Under the pieces are notes generated by a model. That model ran no database searches and had not been told where the DNA came from. It saw nothing but the letters and a program-made list of their open reading frames with translations. A program made the translations under genes and the position numbers. Positions 10,268-32,707 of a stretch of DNA of 32,707 bases are shown one piece after another. Origin of the DNA: Polyangiaceae bacterium (GTDB lineage: Bacteria; Myxococcota_A; Polyangia; Polyangiales; Polyangiaceae); contig JADLAB010000010.1 in assembly GCA_020848455.1 (NCBI GenBank), positions 1 to 32,707 on the forward strand. Direction: 5' to 3'. Position 1 is the stretch's first letter. Each line of letters begins with the position of its first letter.

Positions 10268-10276
10268 TGCTACGCC
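10268..10276 (+). promoter_or_regulatory. Extended -10-like element before the WD40 lipoprotein
   Basis: TG-C-TACGCC ends 6 nt before ATG 10283, with no ribosome binding site. It is the weakest match to a -10 hexamer in the series but has the same spacing. Confidence 0.35.
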
Positions 10277-10282
10277 GGGCAG

Positions 10283-12619
10283 ATGGACGTCTCGCTCGCC
10301 CGCCGCGCCCGGACCCTGGCGCTCGTCGGCGTGCTCGCCGGCGCGACGACCGGCTGCCCGACCGGCGCGACGCCCGGCACGCCCGCCGTGACGGCCGGCC
10401 CGGCGCCGACGGCGACCGCGGCCGCGCCGGTCCTGCCCGACTTCGAGCTCGTGCCGCAGGAAGGCCACGGCTCGGAGGCCGTCGCCGTGGCCTACAGCCG
10501 CGACGGCGCGCTCGTCGCGACGGGCGGCTTCGATCAGAGCCTGCGCATCTGGGATCGCGAGGGCGCCCTGCGCGCGGCCCTGCACTGCGACGGCGACAAG
10601 GTGCACGCGATCGCCTTCGGCCCGCGCGGCGACGCCGTGGCGGGCGCGTGCTCGGGCGCCGTGCACGTCTGGAGCCTCGGCACGGGCGCGCTCCGCGCGC
10701 GCTTCGGCCAGAACGTCCTGGGCCTCGCGTGGAGCCCGGATGGCGCGCACGTCGCCACGGTCGGGCAGAGCGACGAGAGCACCCGCGCCGCCCTCGTGGA
10801 GCTCTGGAGCGCAGCGACGGGCGCGCGCGAGCGGAGCGCGGAGGCGCCGGGCGAGCGCCAGCTCCTGTCCGTGGCCTGGAGCCCCGACGGCCGCAGTCTC
10901 GCGACCGCCTCGCTCGATCGCCGCGTCGCGCGCTGGGACGTCGCGACGCTCCAGTCGATCCGGCTCGGCGCGGGGTCGGCCGGCACGCCGCCCGTCACGG
11001 GCACGCTGGTGGCCTTCGCTCCGCAGGGCGAGCGTGTGGCCGTCGGCGGCGACGGGGAGCTCGTCGTGCTCGAGCTCGCCACGGGCGCGGCGCAGCGCCT
11101 CGGCCCGGGCGGCGACTTCGCGTGGCGCGGCGACGGCGGCGCGCTCGCCGTCGCGCTCGACGGGGGTCGGCTCGAGCTGCGCGATGCACGCACGGGTGCC
11201 GTCACCGGCCAGGCACGACAGCGCGCCGGCATCGAGCGGCTGGCGCTCGCGCCCGACGGCGCCACGGTCGCGGTCGTGGGCGTGGACGATCCGGTGGTGC
11301 GCGTCTTCGCGACCGACACGGGGCGCGAGCTCCGCGCGCTCGGGGCGGGCACGCGCGCGCGCGCACACGTCGCCTTCTCGCCCGACGGACGGCTCCTCGC
11401 CGTCACCGGCGACCGCATCGAGCTCTGGGACGCGCTCGCGGGCACGCTCCTGCGCACGCTCGACGCCTCGGGCGCGCGCCTCGGCGGCACGTCCTTCAGC
11501 CCCGACGGCTCGCTCCTCGTCGCGGCGATCGCGACCGGGCACGCGCGCGTGTGGGACGTCGCGACGGGCGAGGTCGCCGCGGCGCTCGCCGTCGACGATC
11601 CCGAGGACATGGGCTGGAGCTTCGCCTGGGCGCCGGCCGCCGCGCCGTCGGCCGCCGCGGGCCCGGCGCTCGTCGCCGCCGCGGGCTCCGCGCTCGTGTA
11701 CTGGCAGCGCGGCCGGCCGCCGCAGCCGTTGCCGCTGTCCGCGCGCCCGTGGGCGAGCGCGCTCGCCTTCGGGCCCGACGGCGCGACGCTCGCCGTCGCC
11801 GTGCACCGCGAGCTCTTGCTGGTCGACACGGCGAGCTGGAGCGAGCGGGCCCGCCTCGCGCTCGATTCCTGGGGCTGGAGCTTCGAGCCCGCGTGGAGCC
11901 CCGACGGCCGGCTCGTCGCCACGGCCGCCGGACCGGTCGTCGAGCTCTGGAACGCCGCCGACGGCACGCTCTTCGGCCGCGCCGGGGACCGCAGCATGTT
12001 CGCCGGGCCCGTCTTCGACCGCGACGGGCGCCTCGTGTTCGCGAGTCGCGCGGGCACGGTGGAGCTCTGGCCGCCCGCGGGGCTCGCCGGCGCGCCCGCG
12101 CCCGCGCGCCGCGGCACGGGCCCGGCCATGCTGCCGAGCCCCCCCGGCGCCCGCAGCTTTCCCGTCGCGCGCCGCGCGCGCTCCCTCGCCCCGAGCCCCG
12201 ACGGGCGCTTCGTCGCCGCGGGCAGCGACGAGCGCGAGCTCGCCCTCTTCGACGTCGAAGCCGGGCGCCGGGCGTGGAGCGACACGCGCCACGGCTCCCG
12301 GATCTGGAGCCTCGACTGGCACCCGGCGAGCCGGGTGCTCGCGAGCGCGAGCGACGGCGTGCGCCTGTTGCGCGCGGCGGACGGCGCGGCCCTCACGCTC
12401 GGCACGGTCGAGCTCCCGGACCGGCGCCTCGCGGCGTACGTCCGTTCCGACACGGGCGCCGTGAGCGGCGACGCGGCCGCGCTCGCGCAGCTCCGCTATC
12501 GCAGCAAGCCGGGCGCGCTCGACGCGAGCCTCGTCCCCTTCGCGGCGGTGGCCGAGCACGTCGCGCGCCCGGAGCTCGTGGCAGCGTTCTGGGAGGGCGC
12601 GGCGCTCGAGCCGCGCTGA
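10283..12619 (+). CDS. WD40-repeat lipoprotein, about 15 blades
   Basis: The product has 778 residues. A signal sequence ends in a lipobox-like TTGC (Cys25), followed by a Thr/Pro/Ala linker. About fifteen WD40-like repeats follow, each with the pattern [FW]-SPDG-x-x-[LV]-A ... [LV]-[WR]-D (for example [25 protein letters not shown] and [26 protein letters not shown]). That number fits two seven-bladed propellers. The last 60 residues form a non-repeat C-terminal cap. Exported WD40 lipoproteins are typical of Myxococcota and act as protein-binding platforms; no catalytic motif is visible. It is divergent from the sigma-54 activator gene, with 83 bp between the starts. Confidence 0.88.
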
Positions 12620-12654
12620 GCGGGCGCGGGCGCGACGACGCGCGCTGGCATGAC

Positions 12655-12682
12655 TTGATTTCCTGAACCCGTACTTTAATAA
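12655..12682 (+). promoter_or_regulatory. Sigma-70-type promoter for the AAA_14 ATPase
   Basis: TTGATT (12655-12660), a 16-nt spacer and TAATAA (12677-12682) lie in a conspicuously AT-rich 40-bp patch. Transcription would start at or within a few nt of ATG 12691, and there is no ribosome binding site. Confidence 0.55.
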
Positions 12683-12690
12683 TCCGACCC

Positions 12691-13875
12691 ATGAAGGTCG
12701 TGCCGCGACGGGCGGGCGCCGTGCTGCGCCGCATGCTCGGCCGCTCGCCCGCCGTGCTCGTGTACGGCCCCCGGCAGTGCGGCAAGACGACGCTCGTCCG
12801 CAGCGTCCTGCCGGACTGGCACCACGTCGACCTCGAGCGCCCGCGCGACATCGCGCTCGTGCGCGCGGACCTCGAGGGGTGGCTCGCAGGACACGCGGCC
12901 CGTGTCGCCATCGACGAGGCGCAGCGCCTGCCCGAGCTCTTCCCGGCGCTGCGCCACGCGCTCGACGCGCGGCCGACGCGCGGCCGGGTGGTCCTGCTCG
13001 GCTCGGCGAGCCCGACCTTGATGCGCACGGCCGCCGAGTCGCTCGCCGGTCGTCTCGCCCTGCTCGAGCTGACGCCCCTGCTCGCCGCCGAGCTCGCCGG
13101 CACGCGCGCCGAGCGGGACCGGTGGTTCTGGGGCGGATTCCCGCGCGTCCACGCACTCGCCTCGGCGCGCGCGCGGGTCGAGTGGCTCGACGACTACCTC
13201 GGCGCGGTGCTCGAGCGCGATCTGCCAGCGCTCGGCATCGGCCTGCCGCCGACGCGGCTGCGCACGCTCGTCGAGATGCTCGTGCACGTGCACGGCAACC
13301 TCCTCAACGCGTCGGATCTCGCCCGCTCGCTCGGCGTGTCCGTGCCCACCGTGAGCCGCGATCTCGACGTGCTCGAGGGCCTGTTCGTCACGCGGCGCCT
13401 GCAGCCCTTCCACGCCAACATCCAGAAGCGCCTCACGAAGTCGCCCAAGATCTACCTGCGCGACACGGGCCTCCTGCACGTGCTCGGGGGCCTGCGGGCG
13501 CCGCGCGACCTCGAGACCTGGAGTCGCCGTGGGGCGTCCTTCGAGGGCATGGTCGTCGAGGAGGTGACGGCGCTCGCGCGCGAGCGGTGCGTGAGGCCCG
13601 GCGTGTTCTTCTGGCGCACCGAGGCGGGCGGCGAGGTGGATCTCGTCGTCACCGACGGGACTCGGGTCGTGCCCATCGAGATCAAGCTCGGCTCGGCCGT
13701 CGACCACCACGCCCTGCGCGGTCTGCGGCAGTGCATGGCCGACCTCGGCGTGGCGCGCGGCTACGTCGTCGTGGGCAGCGGCGAGCGCACGCGGATCGGC
13801 AGCGACATCGAGCTCGTGCCCTGGAGCGACGTCGTGCTGCGCCGCGCGACCTTCGGCCTCGGCGCGCGGCGCTGA
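12691..13875 (+). CDS. Stand-alone P-loop ATPase (AAA_14 + DUF4143)
   Basis: The product has 394 residues. The AAA_14 domain has Walker [10 protein letters not shown] (about 26-34), Walker [10 protein letters not shown] (about 72-80) and a sensor-like GSASPTLM. The DUF4143 half follows, with a winged-helix-like segment ([22 protein letters not shown]), [12 protein letters not shown], and the nuclease-like core [15 protein letters not shown] ... VPIEIKLG, which resembles the E-x-D ... E-x-K of the PD-(D/E)XK fold. These proteins are widespread, often horizontally moved, and their function is unsettled. Here the gene is alone, with its own promoter and no partner toxin or methylase. Confidence 0.9.
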
Positions 13876-13907
13876 GGGCGCGCGCGGCCGGGCGGCGGAC
13901 GGCACGC

Positions 13908-16523
13908 TCAGCGCTGCCGCAGCACGCGCACGGCGCTCACCGGCAGCCAGCCGTCGGTCGAGCCCCAGCGCGCGTGCACGAGCTTGTCCGCTTGCTCGCC
14001 GAGCTCGACGTGCGCCGCCTCGGGCACGGCCTCGCCCCCGAGCGCCGTGCCGTTCGCGTCGCTCATGTGCGCCTCGCGCATCACGACGACGCCCTGGCGC
14101 ACGTGCAGGCGCAGGTTGCGGGCCCCGAAGTACAGGGCGCCGAGCGACGCGGCCGCCACGAAGGCGGTCGGGATGAGCAGCACGCCCGCGACGTGCACGG
14201 GGCCCTTCGGCCGGCGCCGCAGCAGGATGCCGAGCCCGAGCAGCGCCCCGGCGACGCCCGCGGCGATGCCCCAGGTGCGCTCGGGCGCGAGGCCCGCGAG
14301 CACGCGGTCGAGCGTCGGGCGCACGGTCACCGAGTCCTTGCCGCGCCGGCCGCGGCGCCGCGCCACCTCGGCGTGCACGAGCTCGAGCGCGCGGTCGGCG
14401 GCCTCGTCGTCGGCGCGCATGAGCAGGGTCTCCTCGAAGGCGGCCGCCGCGCGGCCGAGGTCGCCGGGCTTGTCGGCGCCGGCGCGGATGCGCGCGACGT
14501 AGGCGAGCCCGCGGTTGTAGCTCGCGTCCGGGTGCACGAAGCCGCGGTCCGCGAGCCGCTCGTAGCGATCGACCGCGTCCTCGAAGCGCCCGGCCGCGAG
14601 CGCCTCGACGCCCTTCTGGAACTCCTCGGGGGCGTCGGCGCGCGCCGCGCCGGCCGAGGTCACGAGCGCGCAGACGAGCGCCACACCCGCGCCGACCGCG
14701 CCCGGCGCGCGGCCGCCCTCGCGCCCCGCCGCCGCCTTGAGCAGGCGCTTGACCAGGCGCTCGGCGCGCGCCGCGAGGTCGCGCGTGCCGGCCTCGCCGG
14801 TCGGCACGTAGCGGACCTCCTCGCAGGCCGCGAGCACGGCGCGCGTCTCTTCGGCGAGCTCGCCCGGCAGGCCGCGGCGCTCGAGCTCGCCGCGGAGCTC
14901 GGCCAGCAAGACCGCGCGCGACTTGAGACGCGTCGCCGCCTCGACGGCCTGGTGGACGGCGCGCTCGACCGCGCCCGCCATGGCCTTCGGGTCGCCGGCC
15001 CGGCGCATGTCGTGGAGGGCGCGCTCCGCGAGCGCGCCGGGATCGTGGCGGCGCGCGGCGCGCCGGCGCAGGAGCGCCAGGATGCCGCGCCGCAGCCCGA
15101 GGCCGAGCAGCACCCCGAGCGGCGGCGCGAGCACGAGCCCGAAGACGACGGGCGGCTCGAGCGCGACCTCGCTGCGCGGGACGTAGCTGCCGAGCGCCGT
15201 GCGCGGCTCGCCGATGCCCGCGAACGTGTCGCCCGCCGGCTCCTCCGCGCCGCCGTCTCGCTTGTCGCTCGGCTCGGGCGCCGCCGCGGAGGCCTTGACG
15301 CGCACCACCCCGAGCTCCGCGCGCGCGACCTCGTAGCGGCCGCCGCCCTTGCCGTCGGGCTTCCAGAACGGCAGCTCGATGGCGCCGAGATCGACGTCGC
15401 CGGCCTCGTTCACGTGCACGACGTAGCCGAAGGTGCGGAAGCCGCCGACGCGCCCGCCGACCACCGTGGTCTGGCTGCGCTTCTCGGGGTCGAGCCACTC
15501 GATGCCCGTGCGCTGGGGGATGCGCAGGCTGTTCGGCAGGGCGCCCGTGCCGTCGAGGCGCACGCGCACGCTCACCGCGCCTCCCTGCTGGATGTCGCGC
15601 GGCTCGACCTCGGCCTGCAACCGGTAGTCGCCGACGTCGCCGATGCGGTAGCCGAGCGGGCGGCCCGCGACGGGGGGCTCGCGCACCTCGAGCGTGAGGT
15701 CGTTCGAGGTGCGGAGCTCACCCGAGCCGATCCGGCCCCCGGTGAACTTGGCGCTGAGCACGCCGGTCGTGAGGGTGCCGGCGCGCAGCGGGAAGGCCGC
15801 CATCCGATCGAGCAGGCGCACCTCGAAGGGCAGGTTGCCGGCGCGCGTGCGCACGGGCGGGTCGGCGCCCGGGTTCTTCGCGAGGCCGACGCGCAGGAAG
15901 TCCGCGAGCGCGGGCTCGTGCCGGTCGGTCATCTTGAAGTCGACGCGGTAGTAGAGATAGTAGGACAGGGTCACCTGCTCGCCGACGAACAGCGTCGTCT
16001 TGTCGGGCACGGCGCGCACGAACAGCTTCGGGTCGGGCGCCTTCGGCATCTTCAGGCTCTCGCCGTCGAGCTTGTCGTCGCCCGCGCCGCCGAGCGGCGG
16101 CGGGATCTGCGCGCGGCTCCCGGGCGTGACGCGGACCGTGAAACCCGAGGCGGCCGGCACGCGCATGCCGCTCAGCATCACGCTCGGGGCGGGGATCGTG
16201 TAGGTGCCGGGCTCCTCGGCGACGAGCGTCCAGGTGGCCGAGAGCCCCTTCTGCACCAGCGTCACGCCGCCGCCCATGCGCATCTCGGTGCGCGTGCCGA
16301 GCCGCGGCGAGTAGGCGATGATGCCGGCCGGCACGTCGAGCACGGGGTCGCTCGGCATCGAGCCGTCCTCGGTGAGCGCGTCGAGCTGGATGGTGAACTC
16401 CTGGCCCGCCTCGACCTCGTCGGCGCTGATGCGCGCGGTGACGTCCGGCGCGGCGTGCGCCACGCCCGCGAGCGCGAGCACGCACGCGAGCGCGGCCGCG
16501 AGTGCGAGCCACGCGCGTCTCAC
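13908..16523 (-). CDS. batD: BatD-BatE fusion: oxygen-tolerance domain joined to TPR/SH3 region
   Basis: The product has 871 residues; GTG at 16523 overlaps the preceding stop as GTGA. A signal peptide (WLALAAALACVLALAGVAHA) is followed by a BatD-type beta-rich ectodomain (to about residue 470; ISADEVEAGQEFTIQLDA near its start) and a membrane helix (VVFGLVLAPPLGVLLGLGL). A cytoplasmic helical stretch comes next. Then a second signal-like hydrophobic segment (GVALVCALVTSAGAARA) leads into a TPR unit (EEFQKGVEALAAGRFEDAV), two more membrane helices and an SH3-like tail (LVHARWGSTDGWLPVSAVRVL). In Bat operons the TPR/SH3 part is normally the separate gene batE, so this looks like a fusion. It is the last gene of the operon. 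The internal signal-like segment marks the fusion joint. Confidence 0.85.
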   Translation of the reverse strand: MRRAWLALAAALACVLALAGVAHAAPDVTARISADEVEAGQEFTIQLDALTEDGSMPSDPVLDVPAGIIAYSPRLGTRTEMRMGGGVTLVQKGLSATWTLVAEEPGTYTIPAPSVMLSGMRVPAASGFTVRVTPGSRAQIPPPLGGAGDDKLDGESLKMPKAPDPKLFVRAVPDKTTLFVGEQVTLSYYLYYRVDFKMTDRHEPALADFLRVGLAKNPGADPPVRTRAGNLPFEVRLLDRMAAFPLRAGTLTTGVLSAKFTGGRIGSGELRTSNDLTLEVREPPVAGRPLGYRIGDVGDYRLQAEVEPRDIQQGGAVSVRVRLDGTGALPNSLRIPQRTGIEWLDPEKRSQTTVVGGRVGGFRTFGYVVHVNEAGDVDLGAIELPFWKPDGKGGGRYEVARAELGVVRVKASAAAPEPSDKRDGGAEEPAGDTFAGIGEPRTALGSYVPRSEVALEPPVVFGLVLAPPLGVLLGLGLRRGILALLRRRAARRHDPGALAERALHDMRRAGDPKAMAGAVERAVHQAVEAATRLKSRAVLLAELRGELERRGLPGELAEETRAVLAACEEVRYVPTGEAGTRDLAARAERLVKRLLKAAAGREGGRAPGAVGAGVALVCALVTSAGAARADAPEEFQKGVEALAAGRFEDAVDRYERLADRGFVHPDASYNRGLAYVARIRAGADKPGDLGRAAAAFEETLLMRADDEAADRALELVHAEVARRRGRRGKDSVTVRPTLDRVLAGLAPERTWGIAAGVAGALLGLGILLRRRPKGPVHVAGVLLIPTAFVAAASLGALYFGARNLRLHVRQGVVVMREAHMSDANGTALGGEAVPEAAHVELGEQADKLVHARWGSTDGWLPVSAVRVLRQR

Positions 16524-17668
16524 TTGTCCTCCATGACCCGGCGCCGCCCGGCGTTCTCGCGCTTGGCCTGCTCCTGCTGGTAGGACGGCGACTCCTCGAG
16601 CTCGTCGAGGATGCGGTCGAGCTGCTGCCCGCGGCTGCCCTGCGGCTCCTGGCCCGGCTGCGGCTCCTCTTCCTGGGGCGTCTCGGAGTCGTCCGGATCC
16701 CCGCCGGCGTCCGGCTTCTCGCTGCCGCCGTCCTTGCCGGCGTCGGGACCGGCGTTGTCTGCCCCGCCGTCGTCCCCGCCGTCCGCGCCGTCGCCCGCGT
16801 CGCCGCCCCCGTCGTCGCCGCCGTCCTGCCCGGCGTCCGGTCCGCCGTCGTCGCCGGCGTCGTCGCCGCCGTCGGGCTCGCCCGCGTCGCCCGCGTCGTC
16901 GCCCGCGTCGGGCGCCGCGTCCGGCGCGTCGGGCGGGCTGTCGGCGTCGGCGTCGGCCCCCGCGTCGCGCTCGTGGATGCGGCGGAGCGCGATGGCGCGA
17001 TTCCACGCCGCGTCGCGCCCGATGCCGTCGCTGCCCGCGTCCTCGGCCACGCCGGGCACGAGCTCGAGGGCGCGGTCGTACTGGCGCACGGCGTCCTCGT
17101 AGCGGCGCCGCAGGAACTCGAGGTTGCCCGACAGGTAGAAGGCGCGCGCGCGGAGCTCGAGCGGCACCTTGTCGTCGGCGGCGATCGCCTTGGTCACGAT
17201 CTGCGCGCACTCGACCTCGCTCGCGCGCTCGCCGTCCTTCTGGCGCTGCTCGGGGCCCTCGCTGCGCTCTTCCTCGTCGCCGAAGCGCTGGCCGTACTGC
17301 TCGGCCACGTAGAACAGCGTGAGCCCGAGGTCGAAGGAGCCCGCCCACTTCTTCCGCACCTCGGCCGGCAGGCCGAGCTTGGCGTTCGAGCACGGGCCCG
17401 TGCCGAGGTAGCTCTCGAGCAGCTCGGCGGCCGAGGCGTACTTGCCGGCGTCGAGCTCCGCGAGCGCGCGCTCGACCACCGGCGAGTCGCGCTCGAAGGG
17501 CCGGCTCGGCTCCCAGCCGCTGCAGCCCACCATGAGGCGCGCCGCCCCGAGCGGACTGACGAGCGCGACGAGGACCGCGACGAGCAACGCCCCGCGCCGA
17601 CCGGCGCGCGAGCGACGCACGGCGACTCGCGGCGCGCCTCCCGGCGCTCCTCGGTCAGGCCGCGACAC
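16520..17668 (-). CDS. BatC-like TPR protein with long Asp/Gly-rich region
   Basis: The product has 382 residues. GTG at 17668 has an excellent ribosome binding site (AAGGAGG, 6-nt spacer) and overlaps the upstream vWA gene by 14 bp. The order is a membrane leader (ALLVAVLVALVSPLG), a helical region with two TPR-like units (FYLSGNLEFLRRRYEDAVRQYDRALEL), a stretch of about 110 residues made almost wholly of Asp, Gly, Ala and Pro, and a charged C-terminal tail. Bat operons normally carry a TPR gene here (batC). The Asp/Gly region could bind calcium or be a flexible spacer; neither can be decided from sequence. Its repetitive GAC/GGC codons make it a likely site of length variation. Confidence 0.82.
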   Translation of the reverse strand: MSRPDRGAPGGAPRVAVRRSRAGRRGALLVAVLVALVSPLGAARLMVGCSGWEPSRPFERDSPVVERALAELDAGKYASAAELLESYLGTGPCSNAKLGLPAEVRKKWAGSFDLGLTLFYVAEQYGQRFGDEEERSEGPEQRQKDGERASEVECAQIVTKAIAADDKVPLELRARAFYLSGNLEFLRRRYEDAVRQYDRALELVPGVAEDAGSDGIGRDAAWNRAIALRRIHERDAGADADADSPPDAPDAAPDAGDDAGDAGEPDGGDDAGDDGGPDAGQDGGDDGGGDAGDGADGGDDGGADNAGPDAGKDGGSEKPDAGGDPDDSETPQEEEPQPGQEPQGSRGQQLDRILDELEESPSYQQEQAKRENAGRRRVMEDK

Positions 17669-18761
17669 GGCTCGCCTCCTTGCCGGGTGGCTTCGGCAGA
17701 CCCTTGTGCTTGCGCGGCGGCGGCGGCACCGCGCGCACGAAGCGCCGGCGCCGCGCCTCCGGCAGCAGCACCTCGCCCACGAGCAAGACGAGCGCGATGG
17801 CGAGCGGCAGGTAGTAGATGTCCGCGTAGACCTCCTCCACCTTCTCGCTGAGCTCGCTCTTCATCTGCGCGCGCAGGAGCTTGCCGATCTCGTCGATGCC
17901 GGTCGTGCCCTTCTCGGCCCGCACGATCTTGCCGCCCGGGGTCGCCGCCGCGACCTCACCGAGCTGCCGCTCGCCCTCGGGCGAGAGCCCGGTCGTGAGC
18001 GGGCGCCCGTCGCGACCGGTGCGCCAGCCGAGCACGCGCCCGTCGTCGGCGACGTCGGGGATGCGCTCCGGGGTGCGCCCGCCGATCTGCACGACGTGGA
18101 CCGTCGTGCCCTCGTTGCCGATGGCGCGCGCGACCGTCACGGGATCGCCCTCGAGGTCCTCGCCGTCGGTCACGAGCAGGATGACGCGCCGGTGGGTCTC
18201 GCTCGTCTTGTCGCGCTTCAACATGGCGCGTGCGTGCGAGAGAGCGCGCGCGATCGCCGTGCCGCCGACCGGCATGTCGTTCGGCGCCAGCCGGCGCAGG
18301 AACTGCGCGATGGCGCCGCCGTCCGCGGTGAGCGGGAAGCCCATCGGCTCGCCGGCGAAGGCCACGGCGGCGAAGCGGGCGCCCTTCAGCTGCTTGACCA
18401 GGCGCGAGACCTCGACCTTCGCGCGGAAGATGCGCGAGGGCTCGACGTCCTGCGCGTACATGCTCTTCGAGTAGTCGAGCACGATGACCACATCGAGGTT
18501 GGTGGCCGGCACCAGGCGCGTGCCCTTGCCGTACTGGGGCCGCGCCGCGGCCACGAAGGCGAGCGCCACCGCGAGCACGATGAGCACGCCCTTCCAGGCG
18601 CGGCGCTTGGCGGCGTCGGCCGTCATGAGGGCCGTCACGCGCTCGCGGTCGCCGAAGCGCGCGACGGCGCGCGCGCTGCGCCAGCTGCCCCACACGAGCA
18701 GGGCCGCCACGAGCAGGGCGCCCGCGGTGCCGAACAGCCAGAGGGGGGATCCGAAATGCAT
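17655..18761 (-). CDS. batB: von Willebrand A membrane protein (BatB-like)
   Basis: The product has 368 residues. Two N-terminal membrane helices are followed by a vWA domain with a complete metal-ion-dependent adhesion site: DYSKS (the DxSxS motif), the Thr of VGGTAIARAL, and the Asp in VTDGED. One C-terminal helix (LPLAIALVLLVGEVLL) follows. This is the two-helix/vWA/one-helix layout of BatA and BatB. The upstream 231 bp are filled with repeats, and no Shine-Dalgarno sequence precedes ATG 18761, unlike other genes in this operon. It overlaps the next gene. Role: part of the MoxR/Bat envelope-stress complex, with cation-dependent protein contacts. Confidence 0.88.
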   Translation of the reverse strand: MHFGSPLWLFGTAGALLVAALLVWGSWRSARAVARFGDRERVTALMTADAAKRRAWKGVLIVLAVALAFVAAARPQYGKGTRLVPATNLDVVIVLDYSKSMYAQDVEPSRIFRAKVEVSRLVKQLKGARFAAVAFAGEPMGFPLTADGGAIAQFLRRLAPNDMPVGGTAIARALSHARAMLKRDKTSETHRRVILLVTDGEDLEGDPVTVARAIGNEGTTVHVVQIGGRTPERIPDVADDGRVLGWRTGRDGRPLTTGLSPEGERQLGEVAAATPGGKIVRAEKGTTGIDEIGKLLRAQMKSELSEKVEEVYADIYYLPLAIALVLLVGEVLLPEARRRRFVRAVPPPPRKHKGLPKPPGKEASRVAA

Positions 18762-18765
18762 GGTG

Positions 18766-18802
18766 AGTCGTCAGTCGTCAGTCGTCAGTCGTCAGTCGTC
18801 AG
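18766..18802. repeat. Tandem 7-bp repeat (five copies) directly upstream of batB
   Basis: AGTCGTC is repeated five times without change (18766-18800) plus AG. On the coding strand it reads TGACGAC and ends four bases before the batB start, exactly where a ribosome binding site would be expected. Confidence 0.95.
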
Positions 18803-18803
18803 A

Positions 18804-18891
18804 GAGGCTCGCGGCATCCGGACCCAAGTTTCTCGCGAGGCTCACGGCATCCGGACCCAAGTTTCTCGCGAGGCTCACGGCATCCGGACCC
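18804..18891. repeat. 33-bp direct repeat, two full copies and a 22-bp partial
   Basis: The units lie at 18804-18836, 18837-18869 and 18870-18891, back to back, with one mismatch between the first and second copies (G at 18811 against A at 18844). The core contains GGCATCCGGACCC. With no spacers this is not CRISPR. It lies inside the Bat operon between the two vWA genes. Confidence 0.95.
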
Positions 18892-18900
18892 CATATTTCC

Positions 18901-18951
18901 CCTCCCCCCCGGCCCCCTCTCCCCTCGGGAGAGGGGGGCAGGGGGGTGAGG
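18901..18951. repeat. Long C/G-rich hairpin between the two vWA genes
   Basis: A perfect 11-bp stem (18913-18923 with 18927-18937) has a 3-nt loop. It extends, after a small internal loop and one bulge, by 6 and then 4 more pairs out to 18901 and 18951. One strand is nearly pure C and the other G. It resembles dispersed intergenic palindromes found in many GC-rich genomes. It could pause, terminate or protect the operon transcript between the two genes. Confidence 0.8.
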
Positions 18952-18992
18952 AGTCGTCGCTCCGCATGCCGGGTGCTTCGAGGCCGCCTCCG

Positions 18993-20363
18993 TCACGGGA
19001 ACCTCCGCAAGAGCCAGGCGCGCAGCAGGGCGTCGAGCGCGACCAGGAGGACGGCCGGCAGGACGAGGAAGGGGAAGAGATCTTCGTAGCTCGCGATCTG
19101 CGCCTCGAAGCGCGTCTTCTCGAGCTGGTCGAGCACGGCGTGGAAGCTCTGCGCCAGGCCCTTGGCGTCGGTGGCGACGAAGTGCTGCCCGCCGGTCTGC
19201 GCGGCGATGCGGTTCAGGAGCTCGGGGTTCACCGGGAAGCGCGTCTTGACGTAGTGGGGCTGGCCGAACACGTCGACCGAGTCCTGCACCTGGACCTCGT
19301 CGCCGTTGCCGATCTGCACGGTGTAGACCTTGCAGCCCTTCTCGACCGCCGCCTCGATGGCGAACTCGGGCGAGACCATGCCGGCGTTGGAGTCGCCGTC
19401 GGTGAGCAGGATGACCACCTTGCTCGCCGCGTCGCTGCGCCGCATGCGCGCCACGGCGGCGCCGAGCGCGTCGCCGATGGCCGTCGCGCTCCCGTCGATG
19501 ACGTCGAGCGACAGCTTCGACACGAGGCTGCCGAGCAGCTGGTAGTCGAGGGTCGGCGGCGACAGCACGTAGGCGTCCTTGCCGAACACGATGACGCCCA
19601 TGCGATCGGTGCGGCGCCGCGTGATGAAGTCCTCGACCACGATCTTGGCGGCGTCGACGCGCGTGATGCGCGCGTTGCGCGGCAAGTCGCTCGTGTTCGG
19701 CAGATCCTTCGGGTCGGCGTCGAGCACGGCGCGCATCGAGCCCGACAGATCGAGCACCACCATGATGTCGATGCCCTGCTCGTCGGAGGTCTGGTCCGAG
19801 AGCGTGCTCACCGGGCGGGCGAGGGCCAGCACGCCGAGCGCGACCGCCACGGTGCGCAGCACGCCCGGCAGGTCGCGCAGGTACGTGCGCACCCCGCGCG
19901 GCCCGCGCCGGATCGCGGCGACGGTGCCGATGCGCAGGCGCGGCCGGCGGCTGTCCTGACCGAGCGTGCCGAACCACCACAGCAGCGGCACGAGGGCGAG
20001 GAACGCGAACACCCAGGCGTAGCGCCAGTCGGCGTCGAGCCACACGCGGCTGCCGCGCTCGACGAGCGGGTAGACGACCGCGAGCGCCGCGACCGCGAGC
20101 GTGGCGCCGACCGCGAGACCGAGCCGCACCCACGGGCTGCGGCGCGGGGCGGCGCCGGGACCGAGCGACCGCAGCTCCGTGCCGCGCGCGGGGCGCGCCG
20201 GCTGGCCTTCGGGCCTCGGCGGGGCCGCGCGCGACGCCTCGGGCGCCCGCGGGCTCGCCTGCCACGGCGAGGCCGGTGCCACGCCACCGAGCTCGCCCGG
20301 CGCGCGCTCGGGCGCCGGCGTGAAGGCCGGCGGGGGCAGATCGGGCCCGCGGCGCTCGCTCAC
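18993..20363 (-). CDS. batA: von Willebrand A membrane protein (BatA-like) with Pro-rich N-terminal extension
   Basis: The product has 456 residues; GTG 20363 overlaps the upstream stop as GTGA. About 75 residues of Pro/Ala-rich, probably cytoplasmic, extension precede the usual layout. Two membrane helices (LGLAVGATLAVAALAVVYPL and WVFAFLALVPLLWWFG) are followed by a hydrophobic segment and a vWA domain with an intact metal site: DLSGS, the Thr in DGSATAIGDAL, and LLTDGDSN. One C-terminal helix (FLVLPAVLLVALDALL) ends the protein. The N-terminal extension is longer than in typical BatA. It is followed by the 231-bp repeat-filled gap, the only real gap in the operon. Confidence 0.9.
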   Translation of the reverse strand: MSERRGPDLPPPAFTPAPERAPGELGGVAPASPWQASPRAPEASRAAPPRPEGQPARPARGTELRSLGPGAAPRRSPWVRLGLAVGATLAVAALAVVYPLVERGSRVWLDADWRYAWVFAFLALVPLLWWFGTLGQDSRRPRLRIGTVAAIRRGPRGVRTYLRDLPGVLRTVAVALGVLALARPVSTLSDQTSDEQGIDIMVVLDLSGSMRAVLDADPKDLPNTSDLPRNARITRVDAAKIVVEDFITRRRTDRMGVIVFGKDAYVLSPPTLDYQLLGSLVSKLSLDVIDGSATAIGDALGAAVARMRRSDAASKVVILLTDGDSNAGMVSPEFAIEAAVEKGCKVYTVQIGNGDEVQVQDSVDVFGQPHYVKTRFPVNPELLNRIAAQTGGQHFVATDAKGLAQSFHAVLDQLEKTRFEAQIASYEDLFPFLVLPAVLLVALDALLRAWLLRRFP

Positions 20364-21580
20364 GCGGCCCTCCGCGGCGGCGCGGCACCCGCGCCCGACG
20401 TGCCGCTGCCGCCGGTCTGCGGCCCCACGGCCGAGGCGGGCGTGGTCGAGCGCACGATGTGCTCGGCGCGCGCCAGCGCGTCGTCGCAGTCCTCGTGGGT
20501 CGGCACCAGGCGCGCGAACTTCACGAGGTCGCTGTCCTCGAGGAAGCGCACGATGCGGTCCATCTCGAGCAGCGGCGGATACACGCGCTTCAGGAGCCGG
20601 CGCGTCTCGGCCGTCGTCGACTCGAGCCCGTCGAAGCCGTAGCGCTCGCCGAGGTACTTGCGCACGCAGTCGCTCACGCGGTCGAAGAGCTCGTCGGAGC
20701 GCCCCTGGGCCAGGAGCTCCGAGCCGCGGATCGCCGCGAGCTCCTTCAGCGCCGCGACCCAGGGCAGGTCCTTCGGCGGGGCGACGACCGTCTTCGGCCG
20801 CCGGAGCAGCCAGCGCGCCAGGAGGGCGAGCGCCGCGGCCACCACGACGCCGATGAGCACGCCGAAGAACACGTAGCGCGCGAGCGCCCAGTCCTCGCGC
20901 TGCGAGCGCCCGGGCGGGTTCGGCTTGACCTTGGGATCGTCCTCGTTGGCGATCGGGTCCTCGACCGTGATGTCCTGCGGCGGCGTGCACAGCGTCATCA
21001 CGTCCTTGTTGGCGCGCGCCACCTTGATCGGCAGCGACGGCAGGCGCAGCGTGTGCCGGCCGGGCAAGCGCGGCAGCGGCACGAAGGGCACCGAGAGCGT
21101 CGTCTTGGCCCCCTCGCCCTCGTCCACGCGCTCGAGCAGGGGCGGCGAGCCGCCGTCCTCGACGGGCAGCATGAAGCCGGCGTCCTCGAGGGCCCGCGCG
21201 GCGTCGCTCTGGCGCTCCCAGCGAAAGCCCTCGGGCAGAGCGGTCTCGCCGCCGCCGTGGGTGAGCGTCACGACGAGGCGCGCCTCGTAGCCGGTGAGGC
21301 CTTGCGCCGGGAAGGACACGGTCATCCCGGGCCGCGTCGCGCCCTTCGGCAGCACCTCGACGCAGCTCGCGGTCACCTTGCCGCCCCCGCCGGCGTCGGG
21401 CGGCGCCGGCGCGGGCACGACCGGGCCGGCGTCGGCGCCGTCGCGCACGGCCGTCGGTCCCGGCTCGTCGAAGGCGAGCACGGACGCCGTCCCGCCGAGG
21501 CCGGCGCCGAGCGCCCCGGCGACGCCGAGCCCGAGCCCCACGGCCGCGGCGAGCCGCCCCACGCCCCGTCGCCGGCTCAT
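20360..21580 (-). CDS. DUF4381-like membrane protein of the Bat operon
   Basis: The product has 406 residues; ATG 21580 overlaps the DUF58 stop as ATGA. A signal sequence is followed by a periplasmic beta-rich domain of about 230 residues (TVSFPAQGLTGYEARLVVTL, LPGRHTLRLPSLPIKV), one membrane helix (YVFFGVLIGVVVAAALALLARWLL) and a cytoplasmic helical domain (LPWVAALKELAAIR ... VSDCVRKYLGERYGFDGLESTTAETRRLL). The cytoplasmic domain matches the pattern of the DUF4381 proteins that sit between DUF58 and vWA genes in MoxR operons. No catalytic motif was seen; it is probably a structural member of the complex. Confidence 0.78.
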   Translation of the reverse strand: MSRRRGVGRLAAAVGLGLGVAGALGAGLGGTASVLAFDEPGPTAVRDGADAGPVVPAPAPPDAGGGGKVTASCVEVLPKGATRPGMTVSFPAQGLTGYEARLVVTLTHGGGETALPEGFRWERQSDAARALEDAGFMLPVEDGGSPPLLERVDEGEGAKTTLSVPFVPLPRLPGRHTLRLPSLPIKVARANKDVMTLCTPPQDITVEDPIANEDDPKVKPNPPGRSQREDWALARYVFFGVLIGVVVAAALALLARWLLRRPKTVVAPPKDLPWVAALKELAAIRGSELLAQGRSDELFDRVSDCVRKYLGERYGFDGLESTTAETRRLLKRVYPPLLEMDRIVRFLEDSDLVKFARLVPTHEDCDDALARAEHIVRSTTPASAVGPQTGGSGTSGAGAAPPRRAA

Positions 21581-27726: not shown

Positions 27727-29007
27727 CTAGTAGAGCCCCGGCACGATGCGGTACTTCACGCGCCGGCAGTAGGCGTCCCAGTCGGCGCCGTACTTGGCCG
27801 CGCAGTGCCGGTGGTCGCGCCGCTCGCGGTCGATGAGCAGCGGCGCGAAGTAGATGAAGTAGAAGTACGGCGGCACGTGCGAAAAGCCGCACGGCAGGCA
27901 CCAGGCGAGCGCCATCGTGAGGTCGCCGAGGTAGTTCGCGTGCCGGGCGAGGCCCCACCAGCCGCTCGTGAGCAGCGCCGTGCCGCGCGCCGTCTGGATG
28001 CTCGTCGGCGCCTTGCCCCAGATGCGCGCGCCGGGCCGCGTGCGGAAGGCGTGCTTCTGCAGGTTCGAGCTCCGGAAGACGTAGTAGCCGCCCGCGTTCA
28101 TCAGGACGAGCGCGACCGTGGCCCACACGGGCAGGCTCGGGCTCTCGTAGACGAGGTACTGCGCCTGGAGCGAGAAGTTGAAGGGCATCCACACGAGGAA
28201 CGCGAAGGCCAGCATGAAGCCGTAGTTCTCGTGGTTGATGTCCCAGGTCGAGAGCATCGCCGACTCGAACAGGTAGAAGTCGACGACGTAGAGCGCCTGG
28301 AAGGCGCACACGAGCACCATCGGCGCCGAGAGCGCGCCGTCGCGCTCGTGCTCGGCCGCGGCCATCGCGAGCGCCAGCGCGAGCCAGGTCGTCATGCCGA
28401 TCTTCGACTCGAAGAAGAGCTTGAGATCGAAGTCGCCGATGCGCGGGTTGCGCGCCGTGCCCATGAAGAAATCGTGGACGAAGCGCCCGCTGCGCTGCTC
28501 GGGGCGCCGGGACCGCAGGCCGTAGAGGTAGAGGAAGAGCCCGAGCGCGAAGGAGGCGAGGATCGCCACGACGAGCAGGGCGCCGAGCTCGGCGAGCACG
28601 GTCGCCCCCGAGACGATGCCGCCCACCCACAGGCCCGCGAGGGCGGCGACGGACACGCCGAGGGACAGGAGCCCGTTCAGCCGGTAGCGCAGGCGCACCC
28701 CGTCGAGGCCGGGCAGGCCCTCGACCGTGCGGCCCGGCAGCACGAGCTGCAGGACGATCTGGAAGGCGAGCCAGGCGGCGAGGTAGCCCGCCGCGCGCAG
28801 GCTCGGGAGCGGCAGCTCGTCGAGGCTCGGCACGACGAGCGCCCCCCCGTGCCGGTGGATGCAGATCCACAGGTACAGGCTGACGACCGGCATCGTGACG
28901 AGCAGGGCGAGCGGACCCCAGAGGCTCGGCGGGTGCGCCGCGGGGGCAGGCTCGGCGGCGGGCTCGGCTGCAGAGGCGGGGCCCGGCGGGGCTGGAGCGT
29001 CGCTCAT
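27727..29007 (-). CDS. ERG4/ERG24-family sterol reductase-like membrane protein
   Basis: The product has 426 residues. A Pro/Ala-rich N-terminus is followed by many membrane helices. The C-terminal signature of the sterol C14/C24 reductase family is clear: WWGLARHANYLGDLTMALAW, then FYFIYFAPLLIDRERRD and AAKYGADWDAYCRRVKYRIVPGLY. The middle segment FFMGTARNPRIGDFDLKLFFESKIGM also fits. Eukaryotic members reduce sterol double bonds with NADPH in the ER membrane, and bacterial homologues are patchy. No squalene epoxidase or oxidosqualene cyclase gene is in the window, so a sterol substrate is inferred. The convergent HAD gene ends 51 bp away and this intergap shows no terminator. Confidence 0.88.
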   Translation of the reverse strand: MSDAPAPPGPASAAEPAAEPAPAAHPPSLWGPLALLVTMPVVSLYLWICIHRHGGALVVPSLDELPLPSLRAAGYLAAWLAFQIVLQLVLPGRTVEGLPGLDGVRLRYRLNGLLSLGVSVAALAGLWVGGIVSGATVLAELGALLVVAILASFALGLFLYLYGLRSRRPEQRSGRFVHDFFMGTARNPRIGDFDLKLFFESKIGMTTWLALALAMAAAEHERDGALSAPMVLVCAFQALYVVDFYLFESAMLSTWDINHENYGFMLAFAFLVWMPFNFSLQAQYLVYESPSLPVWATVALVLMNAGGYYVFRSSNLQKHAFRTRPGARIWGKAPTSIQTARGTALLTSGWWGLARHANYLGDLTMALAWCLPCGFSHVPPYFYFIYFAPLLIDRERRDHRHCAAKYGADWDAYCRRVKYRIVPGLY

Positions 29008-29125: not shown

Positions 29126-29141
29126 TGGTTCGGTTCTTGCA
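29126..29141 (+). promoter_or_regulatory. Probable sigma-54 promoter of the porin-cytochrome operon
   Basis: TGGTTCGGTTCTTGCA has GG-N10-GC spacing and matches TGGCACG-N4-TTGCA apart from two positions in the -24 box. Transcription would start near 29152, leaving a short leader with GGAG (29155-29158) seven nt before ATG 29166. Confidence 0.6.
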
Positions 29142-29165: not shown

Positions 29166-29756
29166 ATGCGCACTGGATGGATCCTGGCAGCCGTCGTGGT
29201 CTCGAGCGCGGTCGCGGCCGCGGCACTCGGCAGCGGCTCGTCGCCGCCCGCCCCGACCGCCCCCAGGGTCGCGGCCGGGCCGAGCGAGCCGGCCCCCGTC
29301 GCGGTCGCGGCGCAACCGGCCGCGCAAGACATGCACCCGGCCGAGGGTCCGGTCGCCGCGGTCAACGCCCAGGCCATGGCGAGCGCCCACGGCGGCTCGA
29401 AGCTCGCCGTCGAGCCCGGATCCGTGGCCCGCGCAACCGGCGACGCGGCCCGGACGGTCGCGGAGATCTACGCCCAGGCGCCCGCCCTCGAAGGCAAGGC
29501 CGTGCGGGTCGCCGGGCGCGTGGTCAAGGTCACGCCCAACGTCCTCGGCCGCACCTGGCTCCACGTCCAGGACGGCAGCGGCACCCCCGACAAGGGCGAC
29601 TTCGACCTCGTCGCGACCACGGACGAGCAGCCCGAGCCGGGCGACGTCGTGGTGCTCGAGGGCACCCTGGCCCGCGATAAGGACCTCGGGGCCGGCTACC
29701 GGTACCCCGTGCTCCTCGAGCTCGCAAAGGTGCAGCGGCCCGAGGCCGGGAAGTAG
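29166..29756 (+). CDS. Periplasmic OB-fold protein, first gene of the porin-cytochrome group
   Basis: The product has 196 residues from ATG 29166, which has GGAG 7 nt upstream. An N-terminal membrane anchor or signal (WILAAVVVSSAVAAAALG) is followed by a Pro/Ala-rich linker. A C-terminal OB-fold-type domain (about 105-190) follows, with KAVRVAGRVVKVTPNVLGRT, WLHVQDGSG, DFDLVATTDEQPEPGDVVVLEG. Exported OB-fold proteins of this kind occur beside multiheme cytochrome genes; a periplasmic binding or assembly role is possible but unproven. No heme motif is present. Confidence 0.8.
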   Translation: MRTGWILAAVVVSSAVAAAALGSGSSPPAPTAPRVAAGPSEPAPVAVAAQPAAQDMHPAEGPVAAVNAQAMASAHGGSKLAVEPGSVARATGDAARTVAEIYAQAPALEGKAVRVAGRVVKVTPNVLGRTWLHVQDGSGTPDKGDFDLVATTDEQPEPGDVVVLEGTLARDKDLGAGYRYPVLLELAKVQRPEAGK

Positions 29757-29809
29757 ACCGCAACCCTAGCGCCATGGGTGCAACTTCTGCGCGGAGACCT
29801 CAATGACTT

Positions 29810-29841
29810 GCGTCCGCACTCGCGTCCGCACTCGCGTCCGC
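29810..29841. repeat. 12-bp tandem repeat upstream of the beta-barrel gene
   Basis: GCGTCCGCACTC is repeated twice without change (29810-29833) and again for 8 bp. It lies in the 117-bp gap between the OB-fold and beta-barrel genes, about 30 bp before the chosen start. Confidence 0.9.
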
Positions 29842-29873
29842 CGGCTGCCCGGGGCCCGCGACGGCTGGAGACC

Positions 29874-31463
29874 ATGACTCGGCCGCCCCCTGCTTTGCTG
29901 CTCGTGGCGGCGCTCGCCGTGACCCGGCAGGCCGCCGCAGACGACCCGCCCGACACCGACGGCGCGCCGCCCCCGGCCGGCGACACCGGCGGCGCCTTGA
30001 CCCCCGCGGAGCCCGCGGCCGGCGACGCCACCCACGCCGTCCCGAACCCGCCGCCACGCCCGGCCGACGACCCGCCCGACGACGACGAGGGTGACGCCTT
30101 CAGCTGGCGGGTCGCCGGGCAGAGCTACGCCCGCCTGTTCCAGCGCGCGCTCACCCCCGGGGCGGCGGGCGGCTCGCTCGAGAAGGCGACCGCCGCGCCC
30201 TTCTACCAGTACGTGCTGCTCCGCATCGACGACCTCGACCTGCCCTGGCAAGACGACAGCCTCGACGTCGAGCTCGCCGCCTGGGGCGACGTCGAGATGG
30301 GCGAGATCCAGACCGAGCGGCGCGTCGACGGCGACCTCACGCTCGCGCTCGTGCGCCACCGCGTCGGCCCCGCGCGCTTCGTGCTCGGCCGGCAGGTGGT
30401 GGCCGGGGGTGCCGCGCGCTTCAGCCGCTTCGACGGGCTCGCGGCCGGCGTCACCGGCGACTTCGGGCTCGGCATCGACGCCTACGGCGGCTTCACCGTC
30501 TTGCCGCGCTGGAACGGGCGGCCCGGCTATCAGCTGCTCGGCTCGGTCGCCGAGACGCTGGTCAAGAGCCCCGAGGCCCTCGAGACGCCGGCACGCGCAC
30601 GGCACTGGCTCGCCGGCGCGCGCGCCCACTACGCCTACCAGCGCTACCTGCAGATCGGCGCCTCGTTCCACGAGGAGCACGCGGGCACGACGGTGGACGG
30701 CTTCTCGCCCGGCGCGGGCGGGGTCGCGCGGCGCGACTTCGGCATCGATCTCCGCAGCGACCCGATGGAGGAGCTCGGCGTCCACGGCCAGCTCCTGCTC
30801 GACGTCGACCGGGTCGCCGTGAGCGAGGCGCGCCTCGGCGTCGACGTGTGGCCCCACGAGACGCTGCTCCTCATGGCCGGCTACGGGCACGCCGTGCCGT
30901 CGCTCCTCATCTCGCAGCAGTCGGTGCTGAGCGTATTTTCGACCGACGCCTACGACGAGGGTGGCCTCGAGGCCTCGTTCCGCCCCGTGCCGTTCCTGGC
31001 GTTCACCGCCGACGGCTGGGTCGAGCGCTTCAGCGACGCGTCGCTCGGCGCGCGCACCGGCCTCGCGGCCCAGTACCGCGGCGACATCGCCACGGCGACG
31101 CTCGGCTACCGGCGCATCGTCGAGGGCAAGGGCGGCGACGGCTTCTCCGGGGGCAGCGGCTACCACGGCCTGCGGGCCGCGGTCGGCGTCACGCCGCTCG
31201 AGGATCTGCGCGTGACGGCCGAGGCGCACAGCTACTTCTACGACCACGCGGTCACCTCGAGCACCGCGACGGCCCTCGCGGCCGCCGACGCCCCGCAGGA
31301 CGGGCGCGCCCTGTCGTGGATCGGGGCGCTCACCGGCCGCTACGCCTTCCTGGCTCCGGTGGCGCTCACGGTGGGCGGCTCGATCGCCCAGACCCCCTAC
31401 GCGAAGCTCGACGCGCAGCTGCTCGTGCGGCTCGAGCTCGACTTCCGAGGAGGTGAGCGATGA
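29874..31463 (+). CDS. Outer-membrane beta-barrel (porin of a porin-cytochrome complex)
   Basis: The product has 529 residues from ATG 29874. This start places a good signal peptide first (PPALLLVAALAVTRQAAA); a longer frame reaches upstream through the repeat and lacks one. After an acidic Pro-rich linker, alternating aromatic/hydrophobic and polar residues form many predicted strands (SLDVELAAWGDVEMG, LTLALVRHRVGPARFVLGRQVV) with a final strand AQLLVRLELDF. It is followed directly, with an ATGA overlap, by a 12-heme cytochrome. This recalls the barrel of Pcc/Mtr-type conduits, in which electrons cross the outer membrane through hemes held inside the barrel. Identity to a named family was not established. 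Confidence 0.8.
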   Translation: MTRPPPALLLVAALAVTRQAAADDPPDTDGAPPPAGDTGGALTPAEPAAGDATHAVPNPPPRPADDPPDDDEGDAFSWRVAGQSYARLFQRALTPGAAGGSLEKATAAPFYQYVLLRIDDLDLPWQDDSLDVELAAWGDVEMGEIQTERRVDGDLTLALVRHRVGPARFVLGRQVVAGGAARFSRFDGLAAGVTGDFGLGIDAYGGFTVLPRWNGRPGYQLLGSVAETLVKSPEALETPARARHWLAGARAHYAYQRYLQIGASFHEEHAGTTVDGFSPGAGGVARRDFGIDLRSDPMEELGVHGQLLLDVDRVAVSEARLGVDVWPHETLLLMAGYGHAVPSLLISQQSVLSVFSTDAYDEGGLEASFRPVPFLAFTADGWVERFSDASLGARTGLAAQYRGDIATATLGYRRIVEGKGGDGFSGGSGYHGLRAAVGVTPLEDLRVTAEAHSYFYDHAVTSSTATALAAADAPQDGRALSWIGALTGRYAFLAPVALTVGGSIAQTPYAKLDAQLLVRLELDFRGGER

Positions 31464-32527
31464 GCCGCCCCGATCGAGCACCCGCGCGCGCGAGCGTCCG
31501 TCGGGTCGTCTGGCTCGCGCTCACCGTCGCGCTCGGCCTCGTCGGCGCGAGCTGCGGACAGGAGCGCCTGCGCCCCGGCTTCCCGCACAACCTGCACCTC
31601 ACGACGAAGAAATGCGGCGAGGAGGGCGGCATGCCCTGCCCGACCTGCTCGAGCTGCCACACGGACATGCAGCGCGCCGGCGGCGCCAAGCCCCCGGGCG
31701 AGGCCGAGTGCGCCGCCTGCCACAAGGCCACGGCCAAGGAAGAGCTCGCCAAGGTCGCGCACGGCCCCGGGCACGCGAACATCACCTTCCCGCACGACCG
31801 CCACCTGCCGATGCCCGAGATCGCGGGCCAGTGCGTACGCTGCCACAAGGGCGTGCCCGACGACGGCACCGTCGGCGCCATGTTCCCGCCGATGGCCGCG
31901 TGCCTCGGGTGCCACTCGGGCGCCTTCGAGACCGCCACCTGCAGCCCCTGCCACCAGCGCGCCGACCTCGTGAAGCTCGAGCCGCAGACCGTCCTGCGCC
32001 ACGACTCGGCCTTCCTGCGCAACCACGGCGAGGCGGCGACCCGCAACCAGAACGTCTGCTCGCAGTGCCACGCCGTCGAGTCGTGCACGAGCTGCCACGA
32101 CGACACGCAGACGCTCGACCTCGGCGTGCGCCGCATCGACAAGCTCGACCGGCCGCAGCACCACCGCGGCGACTTCGTGGCGCGCCACACCATCGAGGCC
32201 GCGGCCTCGCCGGCGACCTGCACGCGCTGCCACCAGCCGACCTTCTGCGAGGGCTGCCACACCGCGCGCGGCGTGAGCGCCGGCGCGCGCGACGCCGTCA
32301 ACCCCCACCCCTTCGGCTGGGTCACGGACGTGACCTCGGCGAATTTCCACGGCCGCGGCGCGCGGCGTGACATCCTTTCCTGTGCGGCCTGCCACGATCA
32401 GGGCCCCGCCACCAACTGCATACGTTGCCACCAGGTCGGCGGATCCGGCGGCAACCCGCACCCGAGCGGCTGGAAGACCGGTCGCTCGACGGGCGAAACG
32501 ATGTGTGGGTATTGCCATGGCCCGTGA
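31460..32527 (+). CDS. Dodecaheme c-type cytochrome, probable lipoprotein
   Basis: The product has 355 residues. ATG 31460 overlaps the barrel stop as ATGA, and AGGAGG lies a few nt upstream. A signal sequence ends in a lipobox-like GASC (Cys32). Twelve CxxCH heme-binding motifs follow in order: CSSCH, CAACH, CVRCH, CLGCH, CSPCH, CSQCH, CTSCH, CTRCH, CEGCH, CAACH, CIRCH and CGYCH. Many other His residues are available as distal ligands. About 30 residues per heme is dense packing, as in electron-wire cytochromes. With the barrel gene next to it, a role in moving electrons across the outer membrane is likely. The direction of electron flow and the acceptor are unknown. The next cytochrome gene overlaps its end by 11 bp. 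Confidence 0.94.
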   Translation: MSRPDRAPARASVRRVVWLALTVALGLVGASCGQERLRPGFPHNLHLTTKKCGEEGGMPCPTCSSCHTDMQRAGGAKPPGEAECAACHKATAKEELAKVAHGPGHANITFPHDRHLPMPEIAGQCVRCHKGVPDDGTVGAMFPPMAACLGCHSGAFETATCSPCHQRADLVKLEPQTVLRHDSAFLRNHGEAATRNQNVCSQCHAVESCTSCHDDTQTLDLGVRRIDKLDRPQHHRGDFVARHTIEAAASPATCTRCHQPTFCEGCHTARGVSAGARDAVNPHPFGWVTDVTSANFHGRGARRDILSCAACHDQGPATNCIRCHQVGGSGGNPHPSGWKTGRSTGETMCGYCHGP

Positions 32528-32707
32528 ATCTCGAGCCGCGCGCAGAGCGCGGATGTGGATCGTGGTCGCGGCCGCCGCGCTCGTCGGCGCGAGCGCCGTC
32601 GGCGCCTCGAGCTGCCTCGTCCTGCGCGACGAGACGGGCCCGCAGGCGCACCTCTGCACGAGCTGCCACGGCCAGGCCGATCGGCCGGGCGACGAGGTCC
32701 TGCGCTC
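32517..32707 (+). CDS. Second c-type cytochrome lipoprotein (partial, runs off the window)
   Basis: ATG 32517 overlaps the dodecaheme gene by 11 bp. The 63 visible residues give a basic N-terminus, a hydrophobic segment (MWIVVAAAALVGASAVG), a lipobox-like ASSC and one heme motif CTSCH. It therefore continues the cytochrome operon. Total heme number is unknown. Confidence 0.8.
   Translation, partial: MARESRAARRARMWIVVAAAALVGASAVGASSCLVLRDETGPQAHLCTSCHGQADRPGDEVLR

Follow-up and report, generated by a model that had tools for sequence, protein, structure and literature searches.

The right end of a contig from an uncultured groundwater myxobacterium (Polyangiaceae bacterium, JADLAB010000010.1) appears to carry a real, conserved porin-cytochrome conduit, a lineage-specific version of the conduits known from metal-breathing bacteria. 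The stretch analyzed, called the window below, is the complete contig C10 of 32,707 bases, and all the genes concerned lie on its plus strand: an exported protein resembling an oligonucleotide/oligosaccharide-binding (OB) fold, an outer-membrane beta-barrel, a 12-heme lipoprotein-like cytochrome (C12) and a second lipoprotein-like cytochrome (C11). Because both the barrel and C12 are homologous to parts of Geobacter conduits and their order is conserved, the operon is read here, with a probability of roughly 0.8, as a porin-cytochrome conduit belonging to the OmbB/ExtB-E stock, with the electron path proposed below. Also in the broad sense of a porin-cytochrome system, a barrel modeled as an outer-membrane protein is encoded together with a multiheme cytochrome. 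The features are as follows.

29126..29141, plus strand: sigma-54-like promoter site, 24 bases before the OB start codon; a weak candidate, found in the genus only
29166..29756, plus strand: exported OB-like protein, 196 amino acids (open reading frame), hydrophobic N-terminus; probable accessory part
29874..31463, plus strand: outer-membrane beta-barrel, 529 amino acids, with signal peptide and proline-rich linker; assigned from its model and profile relatives
31460..32527, plus strand: C12, 12-heme lipoprotein-like cytochrome, 355 amino acids, with an N-terminal tetraheme and an OmaB-like octaheme core
32517..32707, plus strand: start of C11, second lipoprotein-like cytochrome, beginning at ATG 32517 and truncated by the contig end

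The gene set named in the initial annotation, i.e., an OB-like protein, a barrel, a cytochrome with 12 CXXCH motifs and a further cytochrome, is thus all present. The tight overlap described there is found between barrel and C12 (4 bases) and between C12 and C11 (11 bases), but not for the OB gene, which ends 117 bases ahead of the barrel when the latter starts at ATG 29874, or 21 bases ahead when it starts at GTG 29778.

Conserved Order of the Barrel and Cytochrome Genes

A scan of a genome collection yielded 26 loci, 22 of the Polyangia type and four from Geobacter, Geobacteraceae, and Geothrix. The former come from 20 genomes by title (two with two loci each), metagenome-assembled genomes (MAGs) titled Myxococcales, Polyangia, Polyangiaceae, Sorangium, or delta proteobacterium. 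The barrel gene stands directly before C12 in all 22 Polyangia-type loci and directly before the C12 counterpart in all four Geobacter/Geothrix loci. C11 is also found beside this pair in 22/22 loci, after C12 in 20 and ahead of the barrel in two. Furthermore, among 59 relatives (the source genome included), some C12 match is present in 52 and a barrel match (E 1e-3) in 28, the C12 tally being as high as it is because a weaker class of C12-like proteins, exemplified by contig C76 (see below), is included. Directly after every barrel place at E ≤ 1e-10 (28/28, in 25 genomes) comes a same-strand C12 match, and at E ≤ 1e-3 this holds for 38 of 40. The adjacency exceeds chance and is fixed across loci (22/22) and places (28/28), and we therefore take the barrel and C12 as a putative functional pair.

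The 12-Heme Cytochrome

C12 matches the Pfam Cytochrome_C7 and MtrC/MtrF II/IV domains, both over cut-off. All 12 CXXCH motifs and 11 further histidines are kept in 23/23 Polyangia-type rows of the alignment, the window included; additional histidines are expected for bis-histidine hemes, and those of C12 fit such ligation. The presumed anchor cysteine (Cys32 in the window protein) is found in 27/27 aligned relatives. C12 positions 166–364 align with positions 36–233 of the 239 in OmaB-like proteins (hhalign 99.9%, E 2.3e-31), while the pentaheme lipoprotein of the Geobacter-type loci matches C12 residues 161–267, which hold hemes 5–9. Within eight Geobacter-type loci, the C12 profile matches seven of seven OmaB-like proteins and five of five pentahemes; 19 other proteins with at least three CXXCH motifs all give no match. 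From these alignments we conclude that C12 is an OmaB-like octaheme cytochrome that is extended by a tetraheme at its N-terminus and carries a putative lipid anchor. No match to the MtrA/DmsE family (TIGR03508) was obtained up to E 1, and the profile match to chain A of PDB 6r2q is weak (E 6.4e-4) and stands among other cytochromes.

A second C12-like cytochrome, with 13 CXXCH motifs and a plain signal peptide, is encoded on contig C76 of the same genome (L046, 469 to about 1840, minus strand), with a barrel-like frame just upstream. This pair probably forms an additional conduit.

The Beta-Barrel Protein

The barrel was modeled with AlphaFold from 21 sequences, giving a mean predicted local distance difference test score (pLDDT) of 79.6, a predicted template modeling score (pTM) of 0.71 and about 22 strands as counted from the DSSP string. 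It contains no CXXCH motif, matches none of the families in Pfam and NCBIfam up to E 1 and has no sequence relative in PDB by profile search. A profile match is obtained with barrels of Geobacter and Geothrix that are ExtB/E-like by layout (hhalign 99.9%, E 1.8e-37), and a weaker one with OmbB-like barrels (E 3e-8). The PDB entry with the most residues aligned to the model, among the 50 listed, is MtrB of the Mtr complex (374, Z 15.3). Foldseek returned general barrels with template modeling scores of about 0.2–0.5, and no specific relative was found by it.

Usher, OprD-type, and AlgE barrels are found with comparable scores in the fold search, as would be expected if the protein were an ordinary porin or exporter, the cytochromes served a periplasmic redox enzyme and their adjacency were a convenience of the operon; a known enzyme could then be the partner. 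This explanation is quite improbable, as the order of barrel and C12 is fixed in all the loci and places counted above, both proteins are homologous to Geobacter conduit parts, two lipoprotein-like cytochromes are encoded, and no enzyme gene is constant in the flanks of the conduit loci.

The Second Cytochrome

The 63 residues of C11 encoded in the window are 97% identical to a protein that is complete on a contig of a sister genome of the same genus (L032/L051), where it has 557 amino acids with 11 CXXCH and 4 CXXXXCH motifs. The initial annotation had proposed a search beyond the window: the sister contig supplies the whole protein, but its continuation was not found in the window's own assembly, where only paralogues with 38–51% identity, C11-like CxxxxCH/CxxCH cytochromes on contigs C673, C198, C182, and C492, were found. 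C11 belongs to the CxxxxCH/CxxCH domain family (99 bits). In all 20 relatives with a visible N-terminus (that of L071 and L072 is not), the hydrophobic segment is followed by a cysteine.

The OB-Like Protein and Its Upstream Region

The exported OB-fold protein that the initial annotation placed in front of the conduit is present as a gene, and homologues accompany the conduit in the fetched flanks of 12/22 Polyangia-type loci, directly before the barrel in five; its fold, however, is weakly indicated. The window protein matches Pfam tRNA_anti-codon at E 0.18, a family matched by 4/10 members of the OB family (best 0.021), while BOF is matched by 2/10. The sole PDB profile match is to residues 2–82 of asparaginyl-tRNA synthetase (E 0.014), which we take to be its OB domain. 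The family may resemble NrfJ-like proteins; the literature searched contained nothing usable on OB-fold proteins together with cytochromes. Strong OB places (E < 1e-50) number 17 in the 59 genomes, nine of which have a C12 match no more than 10 kb away, and two paralogues are encoded in the source genome on contigs C192 and C224. Since homologues recur in the flanks of 12/22 loci, the OB-like protein does seem to be part of the conduit system.

The site suggestive of a sigma-54 promoter upstream of this gene scores 25.5 of 29.5 against a sigma-54 consensus. It is equaled in 3/500 shuffles of the 300-base upstream region and is identical in the sister genome. On the other hand, the whole window contains five sites of such score, compared with one to four in five shuffled windows, and of the 14 further loci that were scored none has a convincing site, the best values being 35 and 40 of 500 shuffles. 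These are 14 of the 21 further loci, those left out being L053, L054, L061, L064, L066, L067, and L071.

Genomic Setting and Associated Electron-Transfer Genes

The source assembly has 9.2 Mb in 742 contigs with an estimated contamination of 4.75%, so that one may ask if the contig is misbinned or chimeric and the operon comes from another organism. This is very improbable and largely refuted, as the contig of the sister genome has an identical gene set in identical order, down to the neighboring sterol reductase, and its C12 shows 98% identity; homologues with 40–51% identity are also found at 20 further loci of similar MAGs. The sterol reductase, of the ERG4/ERG24 family (27727–29007, minus strand, 386.7 bits), is divergent from the conduit operon and holds the same position in the sister contig. 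It is consistent with sterol synthesis in Myxococcota, on which part of PMC12004948 reports.

A dense cytochrome with 27, 33, or 34 hemes is encoded in the fetched flanks of 17/22 Polyangia-type loci. The 33/34-heme form has an N-terminal membrane segment, with an NrfH-like stretch in the one member scanned, while the 27-heme form is lipoprotein-like and has a NapC/NirT-type gene nearby in 8/8 loci. A rule that NapC occurs only beside the 27-heme form holds for the family F5 (8/8 versus 0/9), but it was not relied on, the family F12, whose single scanned member has a partial NapC match, being found in 3/9 loci of the 33/34-heme form (L052, L057, and L070).

In the source genome itself, a single stretch of contig C192 (L030, 2–14438) encodes a 33-heme cytochrome with a membrane anchor, cytochrome b, one of the OB paralogues, two NrfD proteins, and two tetrahemes. 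This cluster is likely the inner-membrane side of an electron chain. No match to PF03264 was detected in this genome, while the Escherichia coli control was positive. In the locus L068, one stretch (3934–20962) contains cytochrome b, a 9-heme and a 34-heme cytochrome, the barrel, C12, C11, a tetraheme, two Fe-S proteins, two NrfD proteins, and an MtrC-domain cytochrome, constituting a nearly complete envelope electron chain.

A Proposed Electron Path

From the genes, their motifs, homology and order, we infer where the proteins reside, that they form a complex, and the path, outward direction and acceptor of the electrons. The barrel would act as an insulating pore across the outer membrane. 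C12 would be tethered by its N-terminal lipid, with the OmaB-like octaheme core threading the pore and the extra N-terminal tetraheme reaching toward the periplasm. Quinol would be oxidized at the inner membrane, and the electrons would travel via cytochromes of the periplasm, enter C12 at its N-terminal hemes and cross the barrel to C11, a cytochrome with CXXCH and CXXXXCH motifs that would hand them on at the outer face. The 33-heme cytochrome with its N-terminal membrane anchor, encoded elsewhere in the genome beside cytochrome b and NrfD, may feed C12, and the OB-like protein may be an accessory factor.

In a more specific version, which is tentative and in our view rather doubtful, the path that evolved in Polyangia would be hard-wired: the inner-membrane-anchored 33/34-heme cytochrome would reach across the whole periplasm and dock directly on the C12 tetraheme with no need for small shuttle cytochromes, and the OB-like protein would help in assembly or in docking. 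In a variant, considered jointly with it at the same tentative level, the 27-heme lipoprotein-like form and a separate NapC/NirT protein would take the place of the anchored cytochrome.

Several points weigh against the conduit assignment. The names ExtB/E, OmbB, and OmaB rest on gene layout for the Geobacter proteins used here; C11 is incomplete in the window; the anchor cysteine of the window C12 stands in an untypical context (GAS|C); and in the fold match of the barrel MtrB is equaled in score by pilus ushers and porins. Furthermore, the AlphaFold model of C12 (27 rows) failed, with pLDDT 55 and pTM 0.25, and was dropped, and threading of the barrel by C12 is for this reason given conditionally.

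The same conduit could also be run inward, with C11 and C12 carrying electrons into the periplasm from Fe(II), minerals or partner cells. The direction is not fixed by anything in the sequence, and parts of PMC5566968 present the similar conduits PCC3 and PCC4 as proposed for Fe(II) oxidation. We nevertheless consider inward flow unlikely, since the nearest profile relatives are Geobacter conduits, which serve metal reduction according to sections of PMC6148476, and the neighbors in related loci (NapC/NirT, cytochrome b, and NrfD) are quinol-linked, though able to run either way.

Significance

Polyangia-type myxobacteria are usually regarded as aerobic predators and degraders. With a conserved conduit, a widespread uncultured group would join the organisms capable of electron exchange with minerals or other cells. 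Literature searches joining myxobacteria and electron transfer, and a broader one, brought up no description of such a conduit for Polyangia; multiheme proteins in Myxococcota MAGs from sludge, with Anaeromyxobacter named, are reported in part of PMC11495043. Furthermore, the 12-heme plug links the Ext pentahemes and the Oma octahemes as members of one family, by which the order of heme addition becomes testable.

Comparison With Known Conduits

The initial annotation had noted a resemblance to Pcc/Mtr conduits. The operon is Pcc-like by homology and conserved order, but the Mtr family matches (TIGR03509 for the barrel and TIGR03508 for C12) are absent up to E 1. In the profile comparisons, other multiheme pairs also reach high probability (C12 against the dense family, 98.5% over 95 columns; C11 against the dense family, 98.4% over 335 columns); score and coverage were thus relied on, least of all for C11.

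The closest likeness in barrel score is to ExtEFG and ExtABCD of Geobacter, in the order of barrel, lipoprotein cytochrome and larger cytochrome and in the barrel itself (E 1.8e-37). The four non-myxobacterial loci encode a barrel, a pentaheme lipoprotein of 157–159 amino acids and a further cytochrome. This is the ExtEFG layout outlined in parts of PMC6148476, where ExtF is described as an outer-membrane lipoprotein with five hemes and ExtG as a dodecaheme. C12, however, has 12 hemes instead of five, and C11 aligns with the third Geobacter protein over 265 columns only (98.7%), the proteins compared being from Geobacter and Geothrix relatives, not from G. sulfurreducens. Holophaga is a relative of Geothrix. 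An ExtB/E-family conduit in Holophaga is reported in part of PMC7399161. The barrel-pentaheme sets of Geobacterales (L091–L097, L099, L119, L121, L122, L125, and L126) are of two sorts, with a third protein that is either large (about 350–1080 amino acids, 5–19 CXXCH) or small (about 190–300 amino acids, 3–4 CXXCH).

The pentaheme also has a distant class, with 230–260 amino acids and eight or nine hemes, which is taken as OmaB by layout because it is flanked by an OmbB-like barrel and an OmcB-like cytochrome; in the taxonomic order of L074, 69/78 genomes match the pentaheme alignment or this class. Proximity of an OmbB-OmaB-OmcB set was considered as a proof of ExtEFG identity and rejected, such a set being located about 5 kb from the barrel-pentaheme triad only in L121 and L122 among the contigs read. 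The operon resembles OmbB-OmaB-OmcB in the homologous octaheme core of C12 and in the barrel (E 3e-8), while C12 differs from the octaheme OmaB by four extra N-terminal hemes and the anchor cysteine. As for OmcB, C11 has the anchor-like cysteine (20/20 visible) but aligns with OmcB-like proteins over 92 columns only.

With MtrCAB, MtoAB, and PioAB, the operon would share a design in which a barrel is paired with one cytochrome inside it and another at the cell surface. The fold matches include MtrB, and C12 carries the MtrC/MtrF II/IV domain signature. Unlike in MtrAB and PioAB, up to E 1 the barrel has no match to TIGR03509, the MtrB/PioB family, and C12 none to TIGR03508. The barrel, lacking CXXCH, also differs from Cyc2, in which a heme motif is fused to the barrel.

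By description, likeness is also found to PCC3 and PCC4 of iron oxidizers, in which a porin is combined with dense cytochromes of many hemes and a b-type partner in the inner membrane (parts of PMC5566968; also PMC7399161); dense wires beside porins are described there for PCC3 and, in the latter source, for Burkholderiales. In contrast to PCC3 and PCC4, again set against their description, the dense cytochrome lies outside the window, in the flanks of related loci or, in the source genome, on another contig, and the plug has 12 hemes and the surface cytochrome about 15. PCC3 combines a very large barrel and an inner-membrane protein with cytochromes of many hemes on both the periplasmic and the extracellular side; the barrel modeled here has about 22 strands. 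OetABI of syntrophic sulfate reducers, a porin with periplasmic and lipoprotein cytochromes (part of PMC10553843), is similar by description in having a porin with multiple cytochromes, a lipoprotein included.

The operon had been suggested to be a distinct conduit type. It is better described as a distinct variant within the OmbB/ExtB-E stock than as an independent type, distinguished by its 12-heme, putatively lipidated plug, its frequent OB companions, and the dense 27- to 34-heme cytochromes encoded nearby.

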